Assembly: GCA_028285755.1 (NCBI GenBank)
Contig: JANQOQ010000014.1
Location: 62,001 to 126,000, forward strand
DNA: 64,000 nt
Direction: 5' to 3'
DNA from: Puniceicoccaceae bacterium
GTDB lineage: Bacteria > Verrucomicrobiota > Verrucomicrobiia > Opitutales > JAFGAQ01
Position 1 is the stretch's first letter. Every line of letters starts with the position of its first letter. The position numbers and the translations under genes are program-made. The notes beneath the pieces are model-generated. The model was not told the DNA's origin. It did no database searches and saw only the letters and a program-made list of their open reading frames with translations. Shown here piece by piece: positions 18,886 to 62,249 of this stretch.

Positions 18886-21800
18886 CTAGTTGTCGTCGTT
18901 GGGGGCGTGGACGCGGAATTTGACTTCGCCGCCGGTGGAGTTGCCGTGTTCTTTGATGAAGATGGCGCCGAATTTTTCCTGAATGCCCCAGGCGGGTTTG
19001 CCCCAGATGGAGTAGTCGGTGCGGGTGATTTGGGCGATGTCCTGGTTTGGAGCGATGAGAAAGGGCTGGCCGTCGATGATGAAGCGAAATTTTTCGGCTT
19101 CGAATTCGGCGAGCGAGAAATCCTGGACCCCGCCTGAGCCGACGAGGAGGCGGAGGCCCGCTATTTTGCCGTCTGCGCGGACGTTAAGGAGGGCGCCGGC
19201 GCGGACTTCGTTGCCTTCGATGAAGGTGTTGAGGAGGAGGTCGACGTTGGCGACGTGGCCGTCGTACCAGGTATTTACTTTGGTGAGGGCTGAGTTCATG
19301 CCGCGGATGAGGGTGTCGTTGGCGATGGCGGTGCTGACGAGGGCGTTGAAGGCCTGGTTTTTGACTGTGGAGCCGTCGAGGTCGGTGACCTGGGAGCGGA
19401 GTTCGTTGTAGGCGAGGGCGTTGGCCTGGACTCCGTCTTCGATGCGTTGGACTTCGGAGCGGTTGAAGGTGATGTCGCTTGCCATGCCGTTGAGGCGGCC
19501 GTCTGCGCTGTCCATGCGGGTGAGGAGGGCTGTGTATTGTTGCGCGAGGGCGTTGTCTCCGTTTGCGATGGCGGTCATGGCGGACTCTACGCCGGCTTTG
19601 GCGGTGTTTGCGACGGCGAGGACGCCGTCGATGCGTTCGGCGAAGGCGATACCGTCTGCGGCGTATTTGTTGGTGTGTTCGATAAAGTCTGCGCCGAGGC
19701 CGTCGGTTTCTTCGGAGAGTTCGTTGAGGCGTGTGTCGAGGCCTGCGATGATTTCGTCGGAGATGGTGGAGATGGTGGAGGTGATTTGGGTGATCTGGTC
19801 GTTGAGGATGCCAAGGTATTCTTCGGCGTCGCCGATTTTGATGAGGAGGCCTTCGGGGTCGGATCGACCATTTTCGCTGAGTTCGACGTTGAAGCCGACG
19901 CCTTTGGTGACGACGGAGCGTTCGCCTTCTTCGACGTCGGAGGCGTCGATGTAGAGGCCGTACTGGCCTTCGTTGAGCGGGGTGTGCGTGATGGCGAAGG
20001 GGATGTAGCCGGTGGCGGCGGTGACGTGGTTTTCCAACTCGATGCGGGTGTTGGTTTCGTCCCCGTTTTTAATGACGTAGGCTGACCAGTAGTCGATGTC
20101 TTCGTTAGCGTCTTCGATGTGGCCGTAGAAGGTCATGGGCTCGCCGGTGGTGCCGTTGTAGTCGTTTTTGTCGTGGTCAAAGACGATTTCGGGGGGGGTG
20201 ATTTCGCGTTTTTCGAAGGTGTGGGAGAGGGTGTAGGCGTCTTCCAGGGGTTGGCGGGTGGCGGCGCGGTAGGTCTGGAGTTTAAAGTGTTTGGTGATGT
20301 CCTGGGCGAAGTCGGCGTGGTTGAGGGGTTTTTGCATGAGGGATGCGCGTGTGATGATCCAGAGGTTTTGACCGGGGTAGGCGAGGGCCATGGTGGATTT
20401 GTAGCGGCCGCGGTAGGTGTGGATGCGGTAGCGGTAGTCGCCCAGGGGGGTGAGGGCGCCGATGGAGAGGAGCTCGGAGCCGATGATGGCGAGGAGGGTG
20501 TTGTCGTTTTGAAACTGGGGGGACTGGCCCTGGAGGAGGTGGCTGTCGAGGCTGTTTTCGGTGAGGGTGAGCTCGAGGGTGGTCGGTATGTCTTCGGGGG
20601 TAGGGTTGTTCGGGTTGCTACTGCGTTCGATAGCAGGGAGTGTTGACTGGAGGGTCGCGCGGAGGGCGAAGGGGTGTCGGGACTCGAGGAGGTCGTAGGA
20701 GGCCTGGTCGTCAGACATCCAGGTGTCGAAGCCCTGGATGTAGGGTGCGGGGCGCTCGGCGAGGAGGGCCATAGTGGTGCGGGTGGTGCCCGCGAGGGAT
20801 GCCGGGAGGCGCAGGATGGCAGCGTTTTGGATGGCGGGGACTTCGTGGACGGGGGGCAGGTAGGGGGTATCGGGTGCGGAGTAGTCCATCGCGAAGAGGC
20901 CGCGCTCGCGCACCCAGTCGAGCGTTGTGGTGCCGGCGAAGGGGTGATCCTGACGTGCGGTGCAGCGGACGATGAGGTCGAGCCGGTAGTCGGAATCGTC
21001 GATGTGGAAGCGGTCTCCGGGGCGTATGCGTGTGCCGTCCGGGTGGGTGGCCGCATGGTATTCGTAGGTGGTGGTGCCGGATTCTTCAGGGACGGCGGCG
21101 GTCTGGATAGCTTCCTGTGCGAAGCGGAGGGCCTGCTGGCCGGTGATGAAGAAGGGTTTGGAGAGGCGCTCTTCGCGAACTTCGCCGACGATGCCTTTGT
21201 TGTAGAGGGAGGTGGCGGACTTGGAGTCTTCCTTGAGGAGGCGCTCGTGCTCGCGGTGCTCGACGGTGACTTGGTTGAGGGTGTGTTCGTAGCCGGGGGA
21301 GGTGATGGTGGTCTCTCCGATTTGCTGGTGGTGGGAGAGCTCGGTAAGGCCGGAGGGGATGATGCCGTCGTGCGGGTAGAAGCCGATGGCGAGCCGCCCG
21401 TGGCGGTCGGTGCCGAAGCCGTCGAAGTAGGAGAGGGTATCGCCCCAGAATTGGCGAAATTTTGCAGATTTATGGAGGTGGGGGCAGATGTGGTAGGCGT
21501 CGGGCTGGTTGGTGAGGCGGAGGGCGACATCCTGCCAGGTGGGGATATCGAAGCGTGTGGTGGACCAGCCGAGGCCGAAGTGAGAGTCTGTGAGGAGTTG
21601 GGCGAGCGCGGAGAGGGGGTTGACACCCGTCGCGGTGACTTCTGCGGGGAGGTTGAGGGGGTTGTGGGCCTGGCGCTCGACCATGACCTCGATATCGGGG
21701 ACGGGGGGTGCGGAACCGATGGAGGAGTCTCCTGCGTGGAGCTGATGGAGGACGAGGTAGGCGATGCCATGGTAGGCGGGGTGGTCCTGTTCTGCTGAAG

Positions 21801-22257
21801 CAGAATCTCCGCTTTGCTCCGAGGGACTGGAGGCGGCATTGAGGACGAGGGGGTCCGGGGTTTGGGTATCGGTGCCCCAGTAGATGCGCAGGGTGGTGGC
21901 GTGGGCGCCGACCTGGATGTCTTCGTAGGGGGCGGTGTCCCGGCGGATATCGCCCTGCCAGATGAGTTCCTTGGATTTCCAGATGTGGGTGATGCGGTCG
22001 ATGGGGCCTGCGGCGATGATGCCGGCGATGTCGACGTGGAATTTGTGGCCGGTGGTCTCGGTGGATTTGCCAATTTTCTGCTGGATTTCGGTAGTGCGGA
22101 TGTTGAGTGGCTCAGTGATCCATTTGAGGGCGAGTTTGTCGCGCCCGCAGAACCAGGGGAGGGGGATGGCTTCCTGGTTGGAGGAGATTTGGGATTCGTC
22201 GAGGTTGGCGAGGCGGGGTTGGTCGCTTATTGAAATTTGGGTGGGTTGAGAGTACAT
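18886..22257 (-). CDS. Phage tail tip / host-specificity protein (J-like)
   Basis: 1123 aa. The N-terminal half (WKSKELIWQGDI..., RIYWGTDTQTPDP, GTDRHGRLAIGF, LNQVTVEHREHERLLKEDS) resembles the putative tail-protein domain of siphovirus and GTA tip proteins, which form the baseplate hub. Residues 800-1050 are long heptad-like helices (DQITQITSTISTISDEI...), followed by a small beta C-terminal domain. Its place after the BR0599 and NlpC genes matches the tip operon order. A 35-bp palindromic repeat is inserted in frame at about residue 145 (SGDSASAEQ). The start is 4 nt from TWJ-17. Confidence 0.85.
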   Translation of the reverse strand: MYSQPTQISISDQPRLANLDESQISSNQEAIPLPWFCGRDKLALKWITEPLNIRTTEIQQKIGKSTETTGHKFHVDIAGIIAAGPIDRITHIWKSKELIWQGDIRRDTAPYEDIQVGAHATTLRIYWGTDTQTPDPLVLNAASSPSEQSGDSASAEQDHPAYHGIAYLVLHQLHAGDSSIGSAPPVPDIEVMVERQAHNPLNLPAEVTATGVNPLSALAQLLTDSHFGLGWSTTRFDIPTWQDVALRLTNQPDAYHICPHLHKSAKFRQFWGDTLSYFDGFGTDRHGRLAIGFYPHDGIIPSGLTELSHHQQIGETTITSPGYEHTLNQVTVEHREHERLLKEDSKSATSLYNKGIVGEVREERLSKPFFITGQQALRFAQEAIQTAAVPEESGTTTYEYHAATHPDGTRIRPGDRFHIDDSDYRLDLIVRCTARQDHPFAGTTTLDWVRERGLFAMDYSAPDTPYLPPVHEVPAIQNAAILRLPASLAGTTRTTMALLAERPAPYIQGFDTWMSDDQASYDLLESRHPFALRATLQSTLPAIERSSNPNNPTPEDIPTTLELTLTENSLDSHLLQGQSPQFQNDNTLLAIIGSELLSIGALTPLGDYRYRIHTYRGRYKSTMALAYPGQNLWIITRASLMQKPLNHADFAQDITKHFKLQTYRAATRQPLEDAYTLSHTFEKREITPPEIVFDHDKNDYNGTTGEPMTFYGHIEDANEDIDYWSAYVIKNGDETNTRIELENHVTAATGYIPFAITHTPLNEGQYGLYIDASDVEEGERSVVTKGVGFNVELSENGRSDPEGLLIKIGDAEEYLGILNDQITQITSTISTISDEIIAGLDTRLNELSEETDGLGADFIEHTNKYAADGIAFAERIDGVLAVANTAKAGVESAMTAIANGDNALAQQYTALLTRMDSADGRLNGMASDITFNRSEVQRIEDGVQANALAYNELRSQVTDLDGSTVKNQAFNALVSTAIANDTLIRGMNSALTKVNTWYDGHVANVDLLLNTFIEGNEVRAGALLNVRADGKIAGLRLLVGSGGVQDFSLAEFEAEKFRFIIDGQPFLIAPNQDIAQITRTDYSIWGKPAWGIQEKFGAIFIKEHGNSTGGEVKFRVHAPNDDN
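21789..21823. repeat. Small palindromic repeat, copy 1 (in CDS)
   Basis: GTTCTGCTGAAGCAGAATC and the flank TCCGCTTTGCTCC. The 16-bp core TTCTGCTGAAGCAGAA is a perfect palindrome. It lies in frame in the tail-tip gene and is read as SGDSASAEQ on the minus strand. Confidence 0.8.
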
Positions 22258-22737: not shown

Positions 22738-23688
22738 TTAATGGTTCAGCTTGGGGCGGTAGAGTGTGTGGGGCTGGAGGGTGAGGCGCTGGGAGAGGAA
22801 GGAGAGGTCGGTGAGGCGGTGGATGAGCACCCCTCGTGGTTTCAGACAGTGGAGAACGCGGAGGTCAGAATAGTCGTCATGGTGTGTGTGTATAGTATTT
22901 TGATTATTAGAATTGGAGTATGTATGGTGATTTTTTGATTGTATGTGCCGACTATTCTTAAAGTCTGCATGCGAGGTGTTCGTCGGATGCGAGCTACAGT
23001 CGAGTATTGGCATACACTCCTTTGCTCTTACCTCGAAGCCCTCCCATCCAGAGCTTTCCTCCGCGTTCTCTTTGGGGTGTTTGGCCGCTGGGTCGGAGTC
23101 CACATGCGAGGTGTCCTGCAGATCCGCCCTGCGGTCATGTATGTTTATACATTCCCTTGTGCTTCCTTTGGAGCCCTCCCATCTGGAACTCCCCTCCGCG
23201 TTCTCCGGGTACCGGGCATGAGTGGGTTTTGTAAAGGTTTCTTGTGATTCTGCTGAAGCAGAATTTCCGCTGGGCTCCAATAAGATGCCGAGGTGGCCGA
23301 TGGAGGTGCCGGTGCGAAAGGCGATGAGGTCGCCGGGACAGGGGACAGGAGAATGGGGATCCGAGACGGCGGAGTGATTGAAGGAATCGATTGAATCTTT
23401 GTAGGGGAGTTCGGTGAGTTTGCCTTGGAGTGTGGGGGAGTTGAGGAAGCTGCGGAAGAGGGTCTCGGTGTGCGGGGAGTGGATGCCCCAGTCGGTCGCG
23501 TAGGGGGGGAGGTCCAGGGGTTGGTGGATGAGGCCGATGTGGAGGAGCCAGGCTTGGGCGAGGTGGATGCAGTCGACCCCACCGCCGGGGCCGGGGGCCA
23601 TCGCATTGGCGTGGAACGGGGTATTCAACCATTTCATAGCGAAATGGTTTAGAAGTTCCTGAACGGGTGAATTGCGTGTATAATTCAT
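22738..23688 (-). CDS. NlpC/P60 tail peptidase interrupted in frame by repeats
   Basis: 316 aa. Cell-wall peptidase of the tail tip, as in the GTA/siphovirus order BR0599-NlpC-tip. Catalytic Cys40 lies in GGGVDCIHLAQAW and His132 in GHLGILLEP. The third catalytic residue in the family is a His about 12 residues later (for example VHA in Spr). Here the matching RVLHC is His280, so about 136 extra residues separate the two. The extra segment is read from TWJ-19 plus a small palindromic repeat, and the frame stays open. The start codon (MNYT) is in the P2 loop of TWJ-20. The protein may be inactive unless the insert is tolerated or removed. Confidence 0.75.
   Translation of the reverse strand: MNYTRNSPVQELLNHFAMKWLNTPFHANAMAPGPGGGVDCIHLAQAWLLHIGLIHQPLDLPPYATDWGIHSPHTETLFRSFLNSPTLQGKLTELPYKDSIDSFNHSAVSDPHSPVPCPGDLIAFRTGTSIGHLGILLEPSGNSASAESQETFTKPTHARYPENAEGSSRWEGSKGSTRECINIHDRRADLQDTSHVDSDPAAKHPKENAEESSGWEGFEVRAKECMPILDCSSHPTNTSHADFKNSRHIQSKNHHTYSNSNNQNTIHTHHDDYSDLRVLHCLKPRGVLIHRLTDLSFLSQRLTLQPHTLYRPKLNH
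22852..23215 (+). repeat. TWJ-19, inside nlpC, with two alternative P1 3' arms
   Basis: The P1 5' arm GAGAACGCGGAGG (22852-22864) is coding sequence of nlpC (the codons for LRVL). Its exact complement CCTCCGCGTTCTC occurs twice, at 23058-23070 and 23193-23205, each after its own P3. P2 is AGAATAGTCG / CGACTATTCT, another private pair. Two 3' arms compete for one 5' arm. Confidence 0.85.
23246..23278. repeat. Small palindromic repeat, copy 2 (in CDS)
   Basis: GATTCTGCTGAAGCAGAATT with flank TCCGCTGGGCTCC, the same core as copy 1. It forms the right edge of the insertion in nlpC and is read as PSGNSASAES on the minus strand. Confidence 0.8.
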
Positions 23689-23869
23689 AAGGTTGAGAAA
23701 GAGGTAGCTGCGGTAGACTTTAAAAAGTGTTTGTGGGTAATTGCGCAATTCACCCTCGAGACCACATGCGAGGTGTTCTGCGGATTTGGACTGCAGTCAC
23801 GTATGTTTATACGCTCCTTTGTCCTTCACCTTGAAAGCCTCACATCTGACTCTCGTCAGAATCTCCTTA
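23651..23869 (+). repeat. TWJ-20
   Basis: P2 GGTGAATTGCG / CGCAATTCACC is a clear private pair. P1 is weak (AGAAGTTCCTGAAC with GTCAGAATCTCCTT). P3 is ATGCGAGG type with apex ACGTATGTTTATACG. The P1 and P2 5' arms are nlpC codons and the nlpC start lies in the P2 loop. Confidence 0.8.
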
Positions 23870-23871
23870 TG

Positions 23872-26460: not shown

Positions 26461-26493
26461 TTCTGTTGAAGCAGAATTTTGTTTCGCTCCGAA
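26461..26493. repeat. Small palindromic repeat, copy 3 (intergenic)
   Basis: TTCTGTTGAAGCAGAATTTT then GTTTCGCTCCGAA, one mismatch in the core palindrome. It lies between the BR0599 gene and the hydrolase gene. Confidence 0.7.
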
Positions 26494-34668: not shown

Positions 34669-35067
34669 CTAGGCCCCAAACTGGATGGTGAAGAGGTTGG
34701 CTTTGATTTTGAGTTCGTTGGTGGTGCTAATGACCTGAGGGGTGTCCAGTGTGTGGGCAAACCACAGGTTACCGCCGGAGGAGGCATCGTAGCAGCCGAC
34801 TGCGGTGATGGTACCCCATGCGCCGGTGGCCTGGGGCCAGAGGATGTCGGTGGTGCATCTGAAGAGCCCGTCGGTGACGTCGAAGTTCGTCGAATTGACG
34901 GTGATCTGGACACGTGCGTAGGCAGATCCGGTGACTTCGGTGCCGCCGCCGGTAACGGTGGGTGCGCTGGTGAAAGCGGCGAAGTGGAGGTTGGCCGGGA
35001 AGGTGATGTTGTTATCCCGGAAATCGAGGGCGATTTGTTGTTTGGCGTGGTTGGTTGCGAATCCCAT
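34669..35067 (-). CDS. Tail fibre-like protein
   Basis: 132 aa. LHFAAFTSAPTVTGGGTEVTGSAYARV and QATGAWGTITAVGCYDASSGGNLWFAHTL match the common small tail-fibre family (AALFT..P...GTEV.GG.YARV ... W.T.TH.GIYDA.TGGNLL). It is a virion surface protein. The start is 7 nt from TWJ-22. Confidence 0.85.
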   Translation of the reverse strand: MGFATNHAKQQIALDFRDNNITFPANLHFAAFTSAPTVTGGGTEVTGSAYARVQITVNSTNFDVTDGLFRCTTDILWPQATGAWGTITAVGCYDASSGGNLWFAHTLDTPQVISTTNELKIKANLFTIQFGA

Positions 35068-35074
35068 TTTTATT

Positions 35075-35291
35075 GAAGGCCTCGGGCGAATGAGGCGTTG
35101 AGGTTATGGTTATTGGTTTTAAGATTAGGGAGTATTTTGAAGGTCCTTGAGATCGTTGTATTTCGGCAACGCCTCATTCTAAAGACGACATGCGAGGGGA
35201 AGCTGCATTTGTCCAAACAGTCACGTATGTTTATACGCTCCTGTTTATTCAAATTGGCTAACCTCACATCTCGCACTTTCCGAGATCTTCA
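35075..35291 (+). repeat. TWJ-22
   Basis: P1 GAAGGCCTCGG / CCGAGATCTTC, P2 AATGAGGCGTTG / CAACGCCTCATT, P3 ATGCGAGG / CCTCACAT with mid-stem CATTTG/CAAATT and AAACAG/CTGTTT. First of four tandem copies with no gene between. Confidence 0.92.
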
Positions 35292-35296
35292 ATTTT

Positions 35297-35510
35297 GAAA
35301 GGTTAGAGCGGATGAACCGCCATGGAGGTTGATTATTGTTTTAAGTTTGGATTTTGGAAAATTTGGAGACTGTAGTTTGATTCGGGCGATTCATCCTCGC
35401 TTTTACAACGAAGGCTGACTGCGGCATTCGGCAGGGGTCGAGTATGTTTATACACTCCCCATGCCTCAGCGCTTGTAGACCATCGTTCTAGAAGGCGTCT
35501 ACCGCCCTTA
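35297..35510 (+). repeat. TWJ-23
   Basis: P1 AAGGTTAGAGC with GTCTACCGCCCTT (partial), P2 GGATGAACCGCC / GGCGATTCATCC, P3 AACGAAGG type, apex GAGTATGTTTATACACTC. Confidence 0.85.
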
Positions 35511-35513
35511 TGC

Positions 35514-35727
35514 TGAAGGCCTCGGGCAGGTGAGGCGGTTGATAGGGTTAATATTTGGTGGTTAAATAGGGTAATTAATTTACTTTAAGAGATAGGTTAT
35601 CCGAACCGCCTCACCTTTGAGGCGACAAGCAAGGGGTGCTGCGGATGCGAACTTCAGTCACGTATAGATATACGCTCCATTGTTCTTACCTTGCAGACCT
35701 TGTTTCTCATCCTCATTGAGACCTTCA
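35514..35727 (+). repeat. TWJ-24
   Basis: P1 GAAGGCCTC / TTGAGACCTTC, P2 GGTGAGGCGGTT / AACCGCCTCACC, P3 AAGCAAGG / CCTTGTTT, apex ACGTATAGATATACG. Confidence 0.9.
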
Positions 35728-35954
35728 ATTTTTGAGGCCTCGGGCGAATGAGGCGTTGAGGTTATTTTAGTGGATTAATAATGATTGTAGATTGACTGAA
35801 GATTCGTGAGGTCGTTGGTTTTCGACAACACCTCATTCTCAGGGCGACATGCCAGGCAGCGCCGCGCAAAATGTATTAGTCACGTATGCTTATACGCTCC
35901 TATTCATTTTGCTTGCTAGCCAGACATCTCGTTCTCGCCCACCTCCCTCAAAAT
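35728..35954 (+). repeat. TWJ-25
   Basis: P1 TTTTTGAGG..GG / CCACCTCCCTCAAAA, P2 AATGAGGCGTTG / CAACACCTCATT, P3 ATGCCAGG / CCAGACAT with AAAATGTATTAG / CTATTCATTTT. Confidence 0.88.
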
Positions 35955-36013
35955 GGAGGGTGTTATGGGACTTTGAGGCGTTGTGTTTTTAAAAGGTCAA
36001 GAAGGTTTGGCTA

Positions 36014-37435
36014 TTAGACCCGGTATTGGTGCTCGCGTTGGAGATCGAGGAACACTTTTTTGCCTTCACGGGTTTCAAGGAATTCCTGTGTGTCCGGTCG
36101 GTTATCGAAGACGCCGATGTTTACGTTGAGGTCTTCGGCAGTGAAGGGGGGTTGTTGATGGGTGTTGGAAGCGGGGCCGGTATGGGTCTGGATCGGCGGG
36201 AGCGGGGTGCCGGCGGTGAATTGTGCGATTTGTGTGGTAGGCAGGGGCGGGAGGTTTTTGAGGGCGCTGTTGAGGAGGGTGTCGCCGCTGAGTGTGATTT
36301 CACCGTTGCGGAGGGCTTCGAGGGTAGTGGGGCCCAGGCGTTGGGTGGTTGCGGCGTCGAAGACGTATTCGCCTTTATGGACGATGCCTGCGGGCTCATC
36401 CCTGCGGCCGTGCCCGGTGTAGCCCCCGTGTGCGAAGGAGCCTGCGGCTGCGATGACGGCAGTGAGTGCGGCCAGGCCAATGGCTGCGGCCGCCCCGTAG
36501 GAGGAGACTGAGGTGGCCGCGGCGTTTGCCATGAGGGTGGGGGTCTTGGCGGCTTCTTCGGCGATCTGTTCTTTATTGAGAGTCTTGCGGATGGCGCCCA
36601 TGACGAGCATTTGCAGGCCGATTTTGAAGAGTTGTTTAACGACGTCTGTGCCCACTTTTTCGAAGGCCGTGCCCCAGCTGGTGGTGCCTTTGATCAGGCC
36701 GAGAATGTTTGCATCAAATCCGTTTATGGCAGTATTGAGCGTGCCGGAGAGGCCGCCGGCGATCATATCCTCGGTGGTGCCCCAGCTGTTTTGGAGCTTA
36801 ACGAGGGAGTCGGTGAGCTGATCGGTAAAGCTATGAGGGTCGAGTGTGGAGATGCCGGATTCGTTGAGGGTGTTTTGGCGGGTCTCGAGTGTGGTGATCT
36901 GCTTCTTTTGGGCTTCGGTTCGGTCGTCCTCGTCGATGGCTTTGAGGGCCTTGAGTTGTTCGTCGAGCTTGATGAGTTCGGCCTGGTAGTAGTCTCTGAG
37001 GACGGCGAATTTATCGGCTTCGCTGAGGCCGAAGAACTTCTGGATGCGGTCCTGCTCGAGGCGGAGCTGCTCGAGGGATTTGGACGCGAGGATTTCCTTG
37101 ATGCCGAGTTGTTCGCTGAGATGCCGGTTGGTCTGGGCGAGTTGTTTATTTTGCTGCTTGGCTTCTTGGGTGACGGCCTTCTGGGTTTTAAGGTGGTCTT
37201 CGGCTTCGATATTACCACGGCTTTGCTTTTGGCTATCTACTCTAAAAATTTCAATAGGTTTACTTTGTCTAAATTCTTCGAGTCTTGTTATAATGCTTTG
37301 AATGTCGTTATCGGCGTTATCTAGCGAAAATTTGTTGAGGTCAGAAAGCAGGGCAAAAATTTCTTTAACAGCGTTTTTAACATCATCGATGTTGATGCTG
37401 GCATTGAACTCCAGTGAGGTTTTGGGGTTAGGCAT
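36014..37435 (-). CDS. Tail tape-measure protein, module 1
   Basis: 473 aa. Long coiled coil (residues 60-190, repeated [13 protein letters not shown]-type heptads), then a hydrophobic Ala/Gly segment ([19 protein letters not shown]) and the C-terminal lambda-H-type motif [31 protein letters not shown]. The last 40 residues ([34 protein letters not shown]) are shared with the two other tape-measure genes here. Tape-measure proteins set tail length and line the tail tube; 473 residues would mean a short tail. The start region is preceded by a secreted-protein gene of the same module. Confidence 0.85.
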
Positions 37436-50201: not shown

Positions 50202-51629
50202 ATGCATTCTGCTGCAATAAGGGTTCGGATCAGGGTATATGGCTTAGCTACGGTTTTTGGATCGATAGTGTGGCTGTTGGATGCGTTGATGGATCGCTTT
50301 TTCTTTTATGAGGGAACGATGATGGAGTTGCTGATTACGGATGTACCCGCACATGAGGTGTATATACGGACGCTGATTCTGGTATCCTTCCTGGTGTTTG
50401 CAGAGGTGATCTCACGTATTATCGTTAAGCTGAATAAGAATCAGTATTTTCTAAAAACCATTATGAGCATGATTCCCTTGCCGGTCTTTTATAAGGATAC
50501 CGAAGGGCGTTATCTGGGAGTGAATCGGGCATTCCTGGAATATGTGGGGATCGAAAGGGAGGCAATTATCGGGAAATCGGTTTATGAGCTTTATGAAGCG
50601 GATCTTGCGCAGACTTATCACGAGGCAGATCTCGAGTTGTTGAAAGCGGGAGGCACTCAAAGCTATGAGGCCCATGTAAGGAGGTATGACGGTAGTTTGC
50701 GGGATGTGGTGTTTGAGAAAAGTGTATTTAAGGATATTAATGGAAAGGTGGATGGCATCATTGGCACGGTGATCGATCTTACCGAGGAAAAGCAAATCAG
50801 GCAGAATCTAATCGAGGCCAAGGAAGCAGCGGAAAGTGCAAACCAGGCCAAGAGTGAGTTTTTTGCGGTCGTGAGTCATGAATTGCGCACTCCGTTGAAT
50901 CCGATTATCGGGTTTTCGAATTTGCTTCTGGAGAGCTGCGAAACGCAGTTGGAGCGGGAATATATCGAGAATATCATTGGTTCGGCCAATAAGCAGCGTC
51001 AGCTTATCGAGCAGCTGCTCAATTACTCGGAGATCAGTAAGGGCAACCTGCCGGCCTCCCTGGAGGAGTTCAGCCTGGTCGAGTTGTGCAATTACTATGT
51101 GGCGAATTATGAGCTGCATCCTAAGAAACTGACTTTGGAATTCATCAATGGGGATTTATTCGATGCGGTGTCTGAAGATTTAGTAGTGTTGGGTCCAAAA
51201 GGTATGTTGGAGCAGGTTTTAGGGAACCTGTTGGATAATGCATTTAAGTATACAGAGGCCGGGCAGGTGAGCCTGAAGATGGGCATGGAGCAAATGAAGG
51301 GTCGTCATCCCCGATTTCACTTCTCGATAATGGATACGGGCGTTGGCATTGAGGTGCATCACTTTGAGAGTATTTTTGAGGCGTTCCGGCAGGTGGAGTC
51401 TTCGCAGACTCGCAATCATGAGGGCTTGGGGCTGGGCCTGGCGATGAGTAAGAAGATCGTGGAGACCCTGGGCGGTGAGATCGGTGTGCAGAGCAAGGTG
51501 GGTGTGGGCTCGACCTTTTGGTTTAACCTGAGTATGCCGGTTGCCCTGGAGGGGCAGGATTTTCGGGGGAATGGTGGAGATTTGGTGCCGACTGTGGAAG
51601 CGGAAGTGGTAGCAGCGGCTTCGGTGTAA
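50202..51629 (+). CDS. PAS-domain sensor histidine kinase (cargo)
   Basis: 475 aa. Two N-terminal membrane segments (about residues 14-32 and 50-70) enclose a short outside loop; then a PAS domain (about 85-200, PLPVFYKDTEGRYLGVNRAFLEYVG), HisKA with the phospho-His in SHELRTPLNPIIGF, and HATPase with N box NLLDNAFKYTEA, G1 DTGVGI and G2 GLGLGLAMSKKI. No response regulator adjoins it. It is on the plus strand inside the minus-strand phage genes, so it is either cargo or original chromosome between shuffled blocks. Confidence 0.9.
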   Translation: MHSAAIRVRIRVYGLATVFGSIVWLLDALMDRFFFYEGTMMELLITDVPAHEVYIRTLILVSFLVFAEVISRIIVKLNKNQYFLKTIMSMIPLPVFYKDTEGRYLGVNRAFLEYVGIEREAIIGKSVYELYEADLAQTYHEADLELLKAGGTQSYEAHVRRYDGSLRDVVFEKSVFKDINGKVDGIIGTVIDLTEEKQIRQNLIEAKEAAESANQAKSEFFAVVSHELRTPLNPIIGFSNLLLESCETQLEREYIENIIGSANKQRQLIEQLLNYSEISKGNLPASLEEFSLVELCNYYVANYELHPKKLTLEFINGDLFDAVSEDLVVLGPKGMLEQVLGNLLDNAFKYTEAGQVSLKMGMEQMKGRHPRFHFSIMDTGVGIEVHHFESIFEAFRQVESSQTRNHEGLGLGLAMSKKIVETLGGEIGVQSKVGVGSTFWFNLSMPVALEGQDFRGNGGDLVPTVEAEVVAAASV

Positions 51630-53849: not shown

Positions 53850-54053
53850 AGCATGAGTGCTAGAAGCGTTGGCTGTAAGGAAATGCAAAGGAGTTCTGTA
53901 TGCAAAATGACTGCAGCCATTTACCGCAACACACTGCGCTTGTAGCCTCAAGGATGGATGGCAGAATCCTGTTTTTGATTTGGGATTAAGATGGGGAAGT
54001 TTGAATATTGTCACTTAAAAATCTATCCTACTATTCATCCGTTGCCTCGTTTC
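53850..54053 (-). repeat. TWJ-35, reverse orientation
   Basis: Read on the minus strand it starts at the stop of the module 2 tape-measure gene: P2 5' arm GGATGAATAG, 3' arm CTGCCATCCATCC, then P3 AAGCGCAG / CCAACGCTT with the order reversed relative to all plus copies. The apex is decayed (TTTTGCATACAGAACTCC). Confidence 0.8.
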
Positions 54054-55605
54054 AGACGCGCCACTGATGTTCGCGCATGAGGTCGAGGAAGACCTTTTTG
54101 CCCTCACGGGACTCGAGGAAGTCCTGGGTGGATTGCATGTTGTTATAGACACCTACATTTACAGGCACATTGGGGGCGGCGACATTAACTACCGGTGCGG
54201 GTATGGCCCGGGGCTCGCGATAGCTGGGCGGAGCGATGGAGATGTAGCCGGGGCGCTCCAGGCGCAGGGCCTCCAGATTGGCCGCTCCGAGGCGGCGGGT
54301 GCTCTGCGCGTCAAACACATACTCGCCGCGGTGGACGATGCCCGCGGGCTCACCCTGCCGCCCATGCCCCGTATAGCCGCCGCTCTCAAAACTTCCGAAT
54401 GCGGCAATACCGCCCAATATGGCTGCCGTGGCTACAATGGCCGCCGATCCGTAGGAGGCGGTGGCGGCTGCCCATGCACCGGGTAGCCATTCGGCAAACG
54501 ACTTTGCAGCACTTGCGGCGCTCAGCGCCAGGGATTTGGCGGCCATTACCTTGTCGATCGCAAACATGGCGGCCTTGGTGACGACGTATTCGGCGACCGT
54601 CTTTGCAAAGGCGTCGACCATGTTGTTCTGAAAGCCCGACCAGATGGCATTGAGGGAATCGCCCCAGGCGTTGGAGCCATCAAGCAGTGCCTTGATTTCA
54701 TTCTGCAGGGAGGTAACGGTAGGGGTCAGTTTGGTTCCAAAATTGTTGACCAGATTATCCTCGAGGTTATTCCAGCTTTTCGTGGTTTCGGTGATCTTGG
54801 CATCCAGCTTGTCGAGGAAGTCGGTATCTGTCTTTTCAGGCGGGAGAATTCCCGGGGCCTGTGGCTCGCCTTGCTTGTGACGGCTTGCGATACCAGTGGT
54901 ACCCGGTGGTGTTACCTCAGCTTGTTTGACGATGTCGGGCGCGTATTTGAGCAGGATTTGCTCGATGGCCCGGGCGAGCTGCTCCGCTTCGGGATCGGTG
55001 GTATCGGAGGAGCTGTCATCAAGGGATTGGTCTTCGTTTGATTGATCAGCTCCATCATTGCGAAGCTGTGAATTTACGCCCATTGATTTACTCAAGATTT
55101 CGATACTTCTCTCCAGCCTTTGCTCCGGGGTGTCGATGGTGAGCAGCGCGCTGAGTTCATCACTGAGGGGTGAGAGTGTTTTCAGGCTATTTTTATCGAT
55201 CATGGAGTCGATCAGGCGGACGACTTCATCCTTGTTATGGGCATTCATCAGCTGGATGCGCGTTATGATTGTAAGTAGCTCTTCGATTGTCAGGCTCGAA
55301 GCCTTGGCGAGCTGCTCCAGCAGGGCATAGAGCTGCTCTGCGTCTTTACCCACACCCGGGATTCGCTCGAGACTCTGGATATAGGCATCGCTGAGTGTGT
55401 TTCGGATCTGTTTGGCCAGATCTTCTGTGGGCAGGTTATTAAGCCGGTTTTCGAGTAGGTTCGTCAGCGTTTGATCAAGCGATTCGCGTAAACTTTTACC
55501 ACTTTCAGTGAGTAGTTTATTGATTTCTTTCTGGAAGTTTTGGGTATTCTGTAAGGAGGGGGTGACATGGATATTGAGATCCATAGAAGAATTCTTGGAG
55601 GACAT
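54052..55605 (-). CDS. Tail tape-measure protein, module 2
   Basis: 517 aa. A long helical N-terminal region (residues 1-250), hydrophobic Ala-rich segment (SYGSAAIVATAAILGGIAAFGSF), then [42 protein letters not shown] and the shared C terminus [24 protein letters not shown]. The C-terminal 100 residues match the module 1 and 3 proteins closely while the N-terminal parts differ, so each module likely interacts with a different partner through the N terminus. Confidence 0.85.
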   Translation of the reverse strand: MSSKNSSMDLNIHVTPSLQNTQNFQKEINKLLTESGKSLRESLDQTLTNLLENRLNNLPTEDLAKQIRNTLSDAYIQSLERIPGVGKDAEQLYALLEQLAKASSLTIEELLTIITRIQLMNAHNKDEVVRLIDSMIDKNSLKTLSPLSDELSALLTIDTPEQRLERSIEILSKSMGVNSQLRNDGADQSNEDQSLDDSSSDTTDPEAEQLARAIEQILLKYAPDIVKQAEVTPPGTTGIASRHKQGEPQAPGILPPEKTDTDFLDKLDAKITETTKSWNNLEDNLVNNFGTKLTPTVTSLQNEIKALLDGSNAWGDSLNAIWSGFQNNMVDAFAKTVAEYVVTKAAMFAIDKVMAAKSLALSAASAAKSFAEWLPGAWAAATASYGSAAIVATAAILGGIAAFGSFESGGYTGHGRQGEPAGIVHRGEYVFDAQSTRRLGAANLEALRLERPGYISIAPPSYREPRAIPAPVVNVAAPNVPVNVGVYNNMQSTQDFLESREGKKVFLDLMREHQWRV

Positions 55606-60639: not shown

Positions 60640-60846
60640 GGCATGAGAGCTAGAAACGCTGGCTATGAGGAAATGACAAGGGAGTGTATAGCCTATACAT
60701 GACCGCAGGCATTTATCGAAATATACTGCGTTTGTAGCCTCAAGGATGAATTGCAATCGGTCTTTATGAATGCTGATTTATCACAGATATATTGATTGCT
60801 TCTTAACAAATCTAGATTCTATTGCGATTCATCCGGTGCCACTCTT
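60640..60846 (-). repeat. TWJ-38, reverse orientation
   Basis: On the minus strand it starts at the stop of the module 3 tape-measure gene: P2 GGATGAATCGCAAT / ATTGCAATTCATCC, then P3 with apex ATGTATAGGCTATACACTC and AAACGCAG / CCAGCGTTT. Together with TWJ-35 it is the only copy in this orientation. Confidence 0.88.
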
Positions 60847-62249
60847 TAGACGCGCCACTGGTGTTCGCGCATGAGGTCGAGGAACACCTTCTTGCCTTCG
60901 CGGGACTCCAGGAAGTCCCGCGTGGAGTCCGGGTTGCTGTAGACGCCGATATTGACGGGCGGGGTGTGGTTATCGATGTGCACCTGTGGGGTGGGCAGCG
61001 CCTGAGGTGCGGGCAGGCTGACGGGCCCGCCGAAGTCGAAGGGCGGCAGATTGAGCCGCAGGGCCTCAAGGTTTGCCAGGCCGATGCGACGCGTGCTCTG
61101 CGCGTCAAACACATATTCGCCCCGGTGGACGATACCCGCGGGCTCCAGGCGGCGCCCGTGGCCCGTGTAGCCCCCGCTTGCGAAGCTACCGGCAGCGGCC
61201 ATCGCCGCGGTAAAGGCAGCCATACCCAGCAAGGCAGAAACTCCGGTGGTGGAGATGGATTTGAGCATAGCGTTGGCAGCGAGCGGTCCGGTCTTGGCAG
61301 ATTCTTCGGCCATCTGCTTTTTATGTTCCGCACTGGAGATCGCGCTCATGAGCAACTGCTGGAGTGCGATTTTTGCCAATTGTTTGATTACCGCCTCGCC
61401 GACACTGTTAAATACCGTGCCCCAATCTTTAGTGCCATCGATCAGGCCGATTATATTCTCGTCCAGCGCCTTAAAGGATGCGTCCAGGACTCCATCGACA
61501 CCGCTATTGATCTGGCCCTGGGTATCCGCCCAGGCTTTGCGGAGCTCAAATAAGTGAAGCTTCAGGTTTTCCAGGGTGTTGAAGGTATCTTCGCCAGCTT
61601 CGTGGGTTTCTTCGGTGCTGGTATCGGCACTGAGTTCCGCAGGAGTTTCTGGCAAGCTGCCTACATTCAGCTGCGCATTTTTTTTGTCATTACGTGGATT
61701 AACATCCAGAGAGTTGATTGAACTTTGCGAAAATCCCACGCCGCCGAAGCGATGATATGCATTGAGCATGCGTTCGAGCAGGGCGAGTTTTGTCTCGAGC
61801 TCGGCACGGCTTTCCCCGGCAATGAGCGGTTCACCATCGGCGTTGAGGGCATCCAGTTGTTCCCGCAGGTCCTGGATCTGATTATTCAGCGTATCCTTCT
61901 CGGGCAGTAATTCGAGGGCATCAATATCCCCCAGATGCGAGAGGTGGCCGATGATTTCGAGCACCGAGTCTTTGTAAGTATCCAGCGTTTTTTTCGCAGA
62001 CTTGAGTGATTGCTGGGCGCTTTCGCCCGACTGCTGGTGTTCTTTGACCAGGGCTTCATAGTGGGTTACTTTTTCCTGGAAAAGGGTGAGCAGGGTATTC
62101 AGATCTTCAATGAGATCGTCGTAACCGACAGAGGTTACGGACTGGACGCGCTTTTTAATCGCGTCGATGAGTTGATGGATTTTTTGGGAGTCGTCGTCTT
62201 TAAGCAGGATGCGGAAATCCACATCCACAGAGTTTTGTGAATTGGGCAT
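60846..62249 (-). CDS. Tail tape-measure protein, module 3
   Basis: 467 aa. Coiled-coil N-terminal half, Ala-rich hydrophobic segment ([28 protein letters not shown]), EPAGIVHRGEYVFDAQSTRRIG and the shared C terminus [26 protein letters not shown]. Its C-terminal 40 residues are nearly identical to module 2. The gene precedes TWJ-38. Confidence 0.85.
   Translation of the reverse strand: MPNSQNSVDVDFRILLKDDDSQKIHQLIDAIKKRVQSVTSVGYDDLIEDLNTLLTLFQEKVTHYEALVKEHQQSGESAQQSLKSAKKTLDTYKDSVLEIIGHLSHLGDIDALELLPEKDTLNNQIQDLREQLDALNADGEPLIAGESRAELETKLALLERMLNAYHRFGGVGFSQSSINSLDVNPRNDKKNAQLNVGSLPETPAELSADTSTEETHEAGEDTFNTLENLKLHLFELRKAWADTQGQINSGVDGVLDASFKALDENIIGLIDGTKDWGTVFNSVGEAVIKQLAKIALQQLLMSAISSAEHKKQMAEESAKTGPLAANAMLKSISTTGVSALLGMAAFTAAMAAAGSFASGGYTGHGRRLEPAGIVHRGEYVFDAQSTRRIGLANLEALRLNLPPFDFGGPVSLPAPQALPTPQVHIDNHTPPVNIGVYSNPDSTRDFLESREGKKVFLDLMREHQWRV

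Follow-up and report, generated by a model that had tools for sequence, protein, structure and literature searches.

A structured repeat lies in frame between two catalytic residues of an NlpC/P60-type tail peptidase gene in the Verrucomicrobiota order Opitutales

When a structured repeat lies in frame between two catalytic residues of a tail peptidase, is it translated as part of the protein, is it removed from the RNA, or is the gene dead? The question is raised by the nlpC gene in the window, i.e., the whole 64,000-nucleotide stretch of DNA from a Puniceicoccaceae bacterium that was analysed. The gene encodes 316 amino acids on the minus strand with no internal stop, and its product matches the minor tail protein family PHROG_329 (E = 1.9e-5). 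The match to Pfam NLPC_P60 is weak (0.04), as is expected because the domain is split. Cys40 (in GVDC), His132 (in GHLGI), and His280 (in RVLHC) are all present; the Cys, the His of HxGI, and the third polar residue align with those of NlpC/P60 proteins, and the spacing of 11 to 15 residues is obtained only if the insert is discounted. In an alignment of 42 sequences (nlpC and 41 viral homologues) His132 is invariant and the column of His280 is at least 90% conserved. The gene belongs to a phage or gene-transfer-agent-like structural cluster with a Mu-type portal, a terminase, and tape-measure-like proteins, and it is adjoined by a large tail protein gene.

The first-pass annotation, made from the letters alone, had proposed an element in frame between catalytic residues that should be about 12 residues apart, and the homologues bear out both the insertion and the spacing. 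His132 and His280 are separated by 148 residues, compared with 11 to 15 in nearly all of 54 IMG/VR homologues (motif-based; mode 12), three values of 5 to 8 among these looking like regular-expression artefacts. Neither the 54 viral homologues measured nor any of the nine aligned Opitutales homologue ORFs carries the insert. IMG/VR returned no match when queried with the interrupted NlpC protein, and 80 loci when queried with an alignment of uninterrupted homologues; Rhodobacter phages also match nlpC. As an example, the Opitutales sequence HLCIALDGG-RFVQALKPHGV corresponds to HLGILL[EPSG...SDL]RVLHCLKPRGV in nlpC, which places the insertion point at the turn LDGG|RFVQ, a three-residue turn being replaced by approximately 139 residues. 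Downstream of the insert, nlpC keeps H-C-L-K-P-x-G-V and YRP.

The inserted DNA consists of two units from one family of structured repeats and a small palindrome (Table 1). Of the roughly 410 nt at first assigned to the element, the repeat proper takes up approximately 355 nt (22851 to 23206); the palindrome is present as described, but it belongs to a separate short repeat. The exact 13-nt complements of the P1 arm were correctly located, at 23058 to 23070 and 23193 to 23205, and the second extends to 14 nt. Core units 1 and 2 are exactly 135 nt apart and share a reading frame. They mismatch at 33 of 111 positions (30%), which indicates that the insert is not young, whereas the P1 arms remained identical while the cores diverged. 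The mismatches are spread evenly over codon positions 1, 2, and 3 (10, 10, and 13, respectively), so that the sequence of the inserted peptide is not under visible selection. The short repeat containing TTCTGCTGAAGCAGAA recurs at 21790 and, in a less exact form, at 26461. The copy at 21790 is itself in frame in a tail gene (18886-22257), which has E-x-S-G-[ND]-S-A-S-A-E in common with NlpC.

Table 1. Positions in the window of nlpC, its catalytic codons, and the parts of the inserted repeat
Feature	Position	Strand	Remarks
Tail NlpC/P60-type peptidase gene	22738..23688	minus	ORF, ATG at 23688, stop at 22738; PHROG_329; 41 viral and 9 Opitutales homologues aligned
nlpC catalytic codons	His132, 23293-23295; His280, 22849-22851	minus	ORF and alignment
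P1 arm GGAGAACGCGGAGG, on the 3' side in the mRNA, over codons L-R-V-L-H	22851..22864		complements 23193-23206 and 23058-23070 (13 nt); by score a diverged family end
P2 arm AGAATAGTCG	22867..22876		pairs with 22949-22958; mRNA-strand fold
P2 arm CGACTATTCT	22949..22958		pairs with 22867-22876
Core unit 1: P3/P4, conserved AGGAG-hairpin-(T/C)GACT, hairpin 22999-23020	22963..23054	minus	CM R1 80.4 bits
P1 arm CCTCCGCGTTCTC, first copy	23058..23070		exact 13-nt complement of 22851-22864 arm
Core unit 2, hairpin 23134-23155	23098..23189	minus	CM R1 86.2 bits
P1 arm CCTCCGCGTTCTCC, second copy	23193..23206		exact complement of 22851-22864 arm
Small repeat with palindrome TTCTGCTGAAGCAGAA, coding side E-P-S-G-N-S-A-S-A-E	23248..23278 (palindrome 23248-23263)		about 31 nt
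Neighbouring repeat copy; P2 arm 23665-23676 overlaps first codons of nlpC	23640..23870	minus	P2 arms 23665/23744; CM R1 96.7 bits at 23760-23852

The family to which the two units belong was characterized from 35 cores aligned from the window. Its 24-pair structure is formed in 84% of cells, with two-sided changes in 19 pairs, and the covariation (0.456 versus 0.138 in shuffles) was reached by none of 500 shuffles; it thus supports the family fold far beyond chance. The full unit, of approximately 215 to 235 nt, forms a three-way junction, and its P2 arms vary between copies with compensation. CM R1 identified at least 49 copies in the genome (150 of 761 candidates scored), at least 46 of them within 70 kb (C11:56572-126723) of the 4.25-Mb genome, and an independent pattern search gave the same clustering. 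Irrespective of gene orientation, 44 of these 46 copies lie on one strand. An integron attC array, considered since copies of one region share a strand, was set aside on inspection, there being no consistent GTTRRRY-type ends and no cassette organisation. Other members of the order Opitutales also carry the family; elsewhere the exact core pattern was found in Opitutales MAGs only, and a search of viral contigs found none. Rfam scans of the window at the gathering threshold and of 34900-36000 at a permissive E-value gave no family for the repeat and no match to a known self-splicing intron or ribozyme. A related-looking hairpin, GGAGCGTATGCGCATACGCGAC, occurs in 8 copies in G445 and 17 in G461, genomes of the same phylum and another family. 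Within the window, a repeat copy has its P1/P2 arm over the last codons and stop (1567-1586) of a cytochrome c552 gene (147-1586).

The strand on which the repeat folds best is that of the nlpC mRNA. Specifically, 27 of 28 copies have the better fold on the minus strand (mean z -6.2 versus -3.4), an advantage that also holds for copies from other genomes, and plus-strand A.C mismatches in the core, equivalent to minus-strand G.U pairs, outnumber plus-strand G.U pairs by 38 to 18. Both point to the nlpC mRNA strand as probably the functional RNA. P2 alone shows the reverse (A.C 3 versus G.U 9). For the nlpC copy, the mRNA strand is predicted to fold into P1, P3, and P2 with a z of -7.7.

As to the origin of the P1 stem, the first-pass annotation had taken the 5' arm to be codons of the host gene and offered two explanations, namely that the arm was copied from the target on insertion or that the stem was rebuilt by selection. 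Copying would make the P1 stem at nlpC (arm GAGAACGCGGAGG) target DNA duplicated as an inverted repeat, a proposal that concerns the origin of the stem only and is compatible with translation. It gains from the exact 13-nt complements at two places and from the alignment of R-V-L with R-F-V of homologues, because of which part of the arm may indeed be host sequence. Against it, the position of the P1 arm ahead of P2 is constant among the aligned copies, and the nlpC arm has the same register and core distance. Scored against the profile of the other copies, nlpC P1 and P2 together rank among the highest 0.12% of window positions (P1 alone, top 1.0%; P2 alone, top 1.2%), and in the RHS genes described below the P1 arms are missing from the intact paralogue. 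The nlpC arms look like a diverged end of the element itself, so copying is not needed and we consider it quite unlikely; maintenance of the stem by compensatory change, the form in which the selection proposal survives, fits better.

Several properties of the gene bear on whether the insert is read. Its frame contains no stop in 418 nt (139 codons), whereas dinucleotide shuffles contain 5.25 on average and are open with P = 0.0036, a value that carries some selection bias because the open frame had drawn attention to the insert; among the antisense frames of 32 other copies, only 2 of about 96 are open. GC3 is 0.76 before the insert, 0.53 within it, and 0.82 after it, and this drop and return make it look as if the insert is non-coding in origin and the gene continues beyond it. 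The AF2 model, whose core depends on an alignment in which the insert appears as a gap, has scores mostly above 90 in the domain core and below 50 for residues 143 to 270, and the strand formed by residues 277 to 282, with His280, is confident; a tolerated loop would be expected to give this pattern. Foldseek searches with the predicted fold gave weak matches, the best (E = 0.02) to NlpC/P60 entries. With its reading frame unbroken, the enzyme probably carries a floppy loop of approximately 139 residues between two catalytic residues. If instead the prophage or gene-transfer-agent-like cluster is decaying, nlpC would be dead and its open frame a relic or luck. The repeats that pepper the cluster, its three tape-measure-like ORFs and cargo genes, and a peptide that bears no selection signal would suit decay; the frame, however, is intact in an insert that is not young, as is the segment behind it, with its GC3, the conserved His280, and YRP, and we regard decay as unlikely.

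A second in-frame case comes from the sister genus G001, in which a repeat copy of exactly 186 nt lies in frame in RHS-repeat genes (L048, L049, and L050) between YDAYG and NLL, while uninterrupted RHS paralogues of the same genome read YDAYGNLL. Three places have this left junction in common; at a fourth, where the left junction is another one, the frame is open too. In the copy with the different left junction, approximately 25 to 30 residues of RHS sequence are missing. Relative to the gene, the repeat is oriented oppositely in RHS and nlpC. Other frames spanning copies in further Opitutales genomes (about 60 loci) were spurious-looking or rested on weak matches where they were long, leaving two independent in-frame events, nlpC and RHS; no sign of purifying selection on the inserted peptide was seen in either.

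These two read-through insertions argue for translation, and the RHS case also weighs on the opposite proposal of the first-pass annotation, a self-removing intervening sequence whose RNA would be cut or spliced from the nlpC mRNA to give an uninterrupted NlpC. The mRNA strand does fold compactly into a three-way junction, with a perfect P1 of 13 to 14 bp as its closing stem, a topology suited to joining ends. However, the RHS mRNA contains the opposite repeat strand, P1 sequences and junctions differ between nlpC and RHS, almost every other copy is intergenic, the Rfam scans (the window at the gathering threshold, 34900-36000 permissively) brought up no intron or ribozyme, and an RNA that removes itself would not need an open frame. 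Self-removal is thus highly improbable, and the annotation's alternative of a translated protein insert fits the stop-free frame, the coding signals behind it, and the independent RHS case.

Quite probably, therefore, the insert is an old in-frame MITE-like repeat resembling ERIC, with a tandem core, that is read through as a disordered loop and not removed. We infer that a non-autonomous Opitutales repeat entered nlpC by transposition, landing in the beta-turn that links the HxGI strand to the one bearing the third catalytic residue. It would be transcribed along with nlpC, and in the mRNA it is predicted to form the three-way junction of P1, P2, and P3; the repeat would stay there and be read through by ribosomes, giving a polar, disordered loop of approximately 139 residues extruded from a core that could still assemble and may retain activity.

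The repeat family is new, being undescribed and without an Rfam match; in-frame landings of repeats are already known in other bacteria. RPEs lie in 19 Rickettsia reading frames, one of which encodes an active guanylate kinase (PMC2229807), and ERIC, a MITE-like element, and RU-1 form in-frame fusions (PMC2759123). Like RPEs, the Opitutales repeats are structured, palindromic, and intergenic as well as tolerated in frame in genes of conserved proteins (PMC2229807; PMC10969869); unlike RPEs as described (105 to 146 bp), they have a larger unit that forms a three-way junction, can hold a second core in tandem, and contains an ERIC-like hairpin, and their in-frame cases are rare. They resemble MITEs in being short, non-coding, and dispersed and in what may be terminal inverted repeats, P1 inverted repeats being present in most copies. 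Visual inspection gave possible 5-bp TTNAA target duplications in three or four copies, all from HE327, and none were seen at nlpC or RHS.

The resemblance to ERIC, IRU, and RU-1 lies in the core, AGGAG-[5-bp stem]-4-nt loop-[stem]-UGACU, and in the same strand folding better. Two E. coli ERIC copies can be aligned with the whole of R1 (18.1 and 16.8 bits), alignments whose E-values overstate the surprise since ERIC had been picked by prior recognition of the motif; in a fairer scan of a 50-kb E. coli stretch the best R1 match was ERIC (E = 0.06; next, 0.82), which is only suggestive of a link. ERIC measures 127 bp and forms one long hairpin, whereas the Opitutales repeat is larger, adds P2 and the three-way junction, and is clustered on one strand; with only the central hairpin motif in common, it falls outside ERIC/IRU. 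Yersinia ERIC lowers the stability of upstream transcripts, probably via RNase E (PMC2229807), and by analogy the Opitutales repeat might have a similar role. A wider reading, tentative at best, is that ERIC-type repeats constitute a cross-phylum class (AGGAG-hairpin-UGACU with a tandem G.A internal loop), of which the Opitutales family would be a large three-way-junction branch controlling mRNA stability or translation and tolerated as loops in either orientation. Whether ERIC is part of a much wider class of this kind can be tested with the ERIC-like core. In-frame insertion of structured repeats into proteins is best known from Rickettsia and enterobacteria; the two independent Verrucomicrobiota cases, RHS, whose genome also contains uninterrupted paralogues, and nlpC, where the insert splits catalytic residues of an enzyme of the phage tail, suggest a general route from mobile non-coding DNA to protein.

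Two further observations concern the surroundings of nlpC. The three separate tape-measure-like ORFs of the one structural cluster are located at 36014-37435, 54052-55605, and 60846-62249, with a sensor kinase (50202-51629) between them. GC skew across the window (1-64000) is very strong and steady, at 0.14 to 0.35 per 4 kb.
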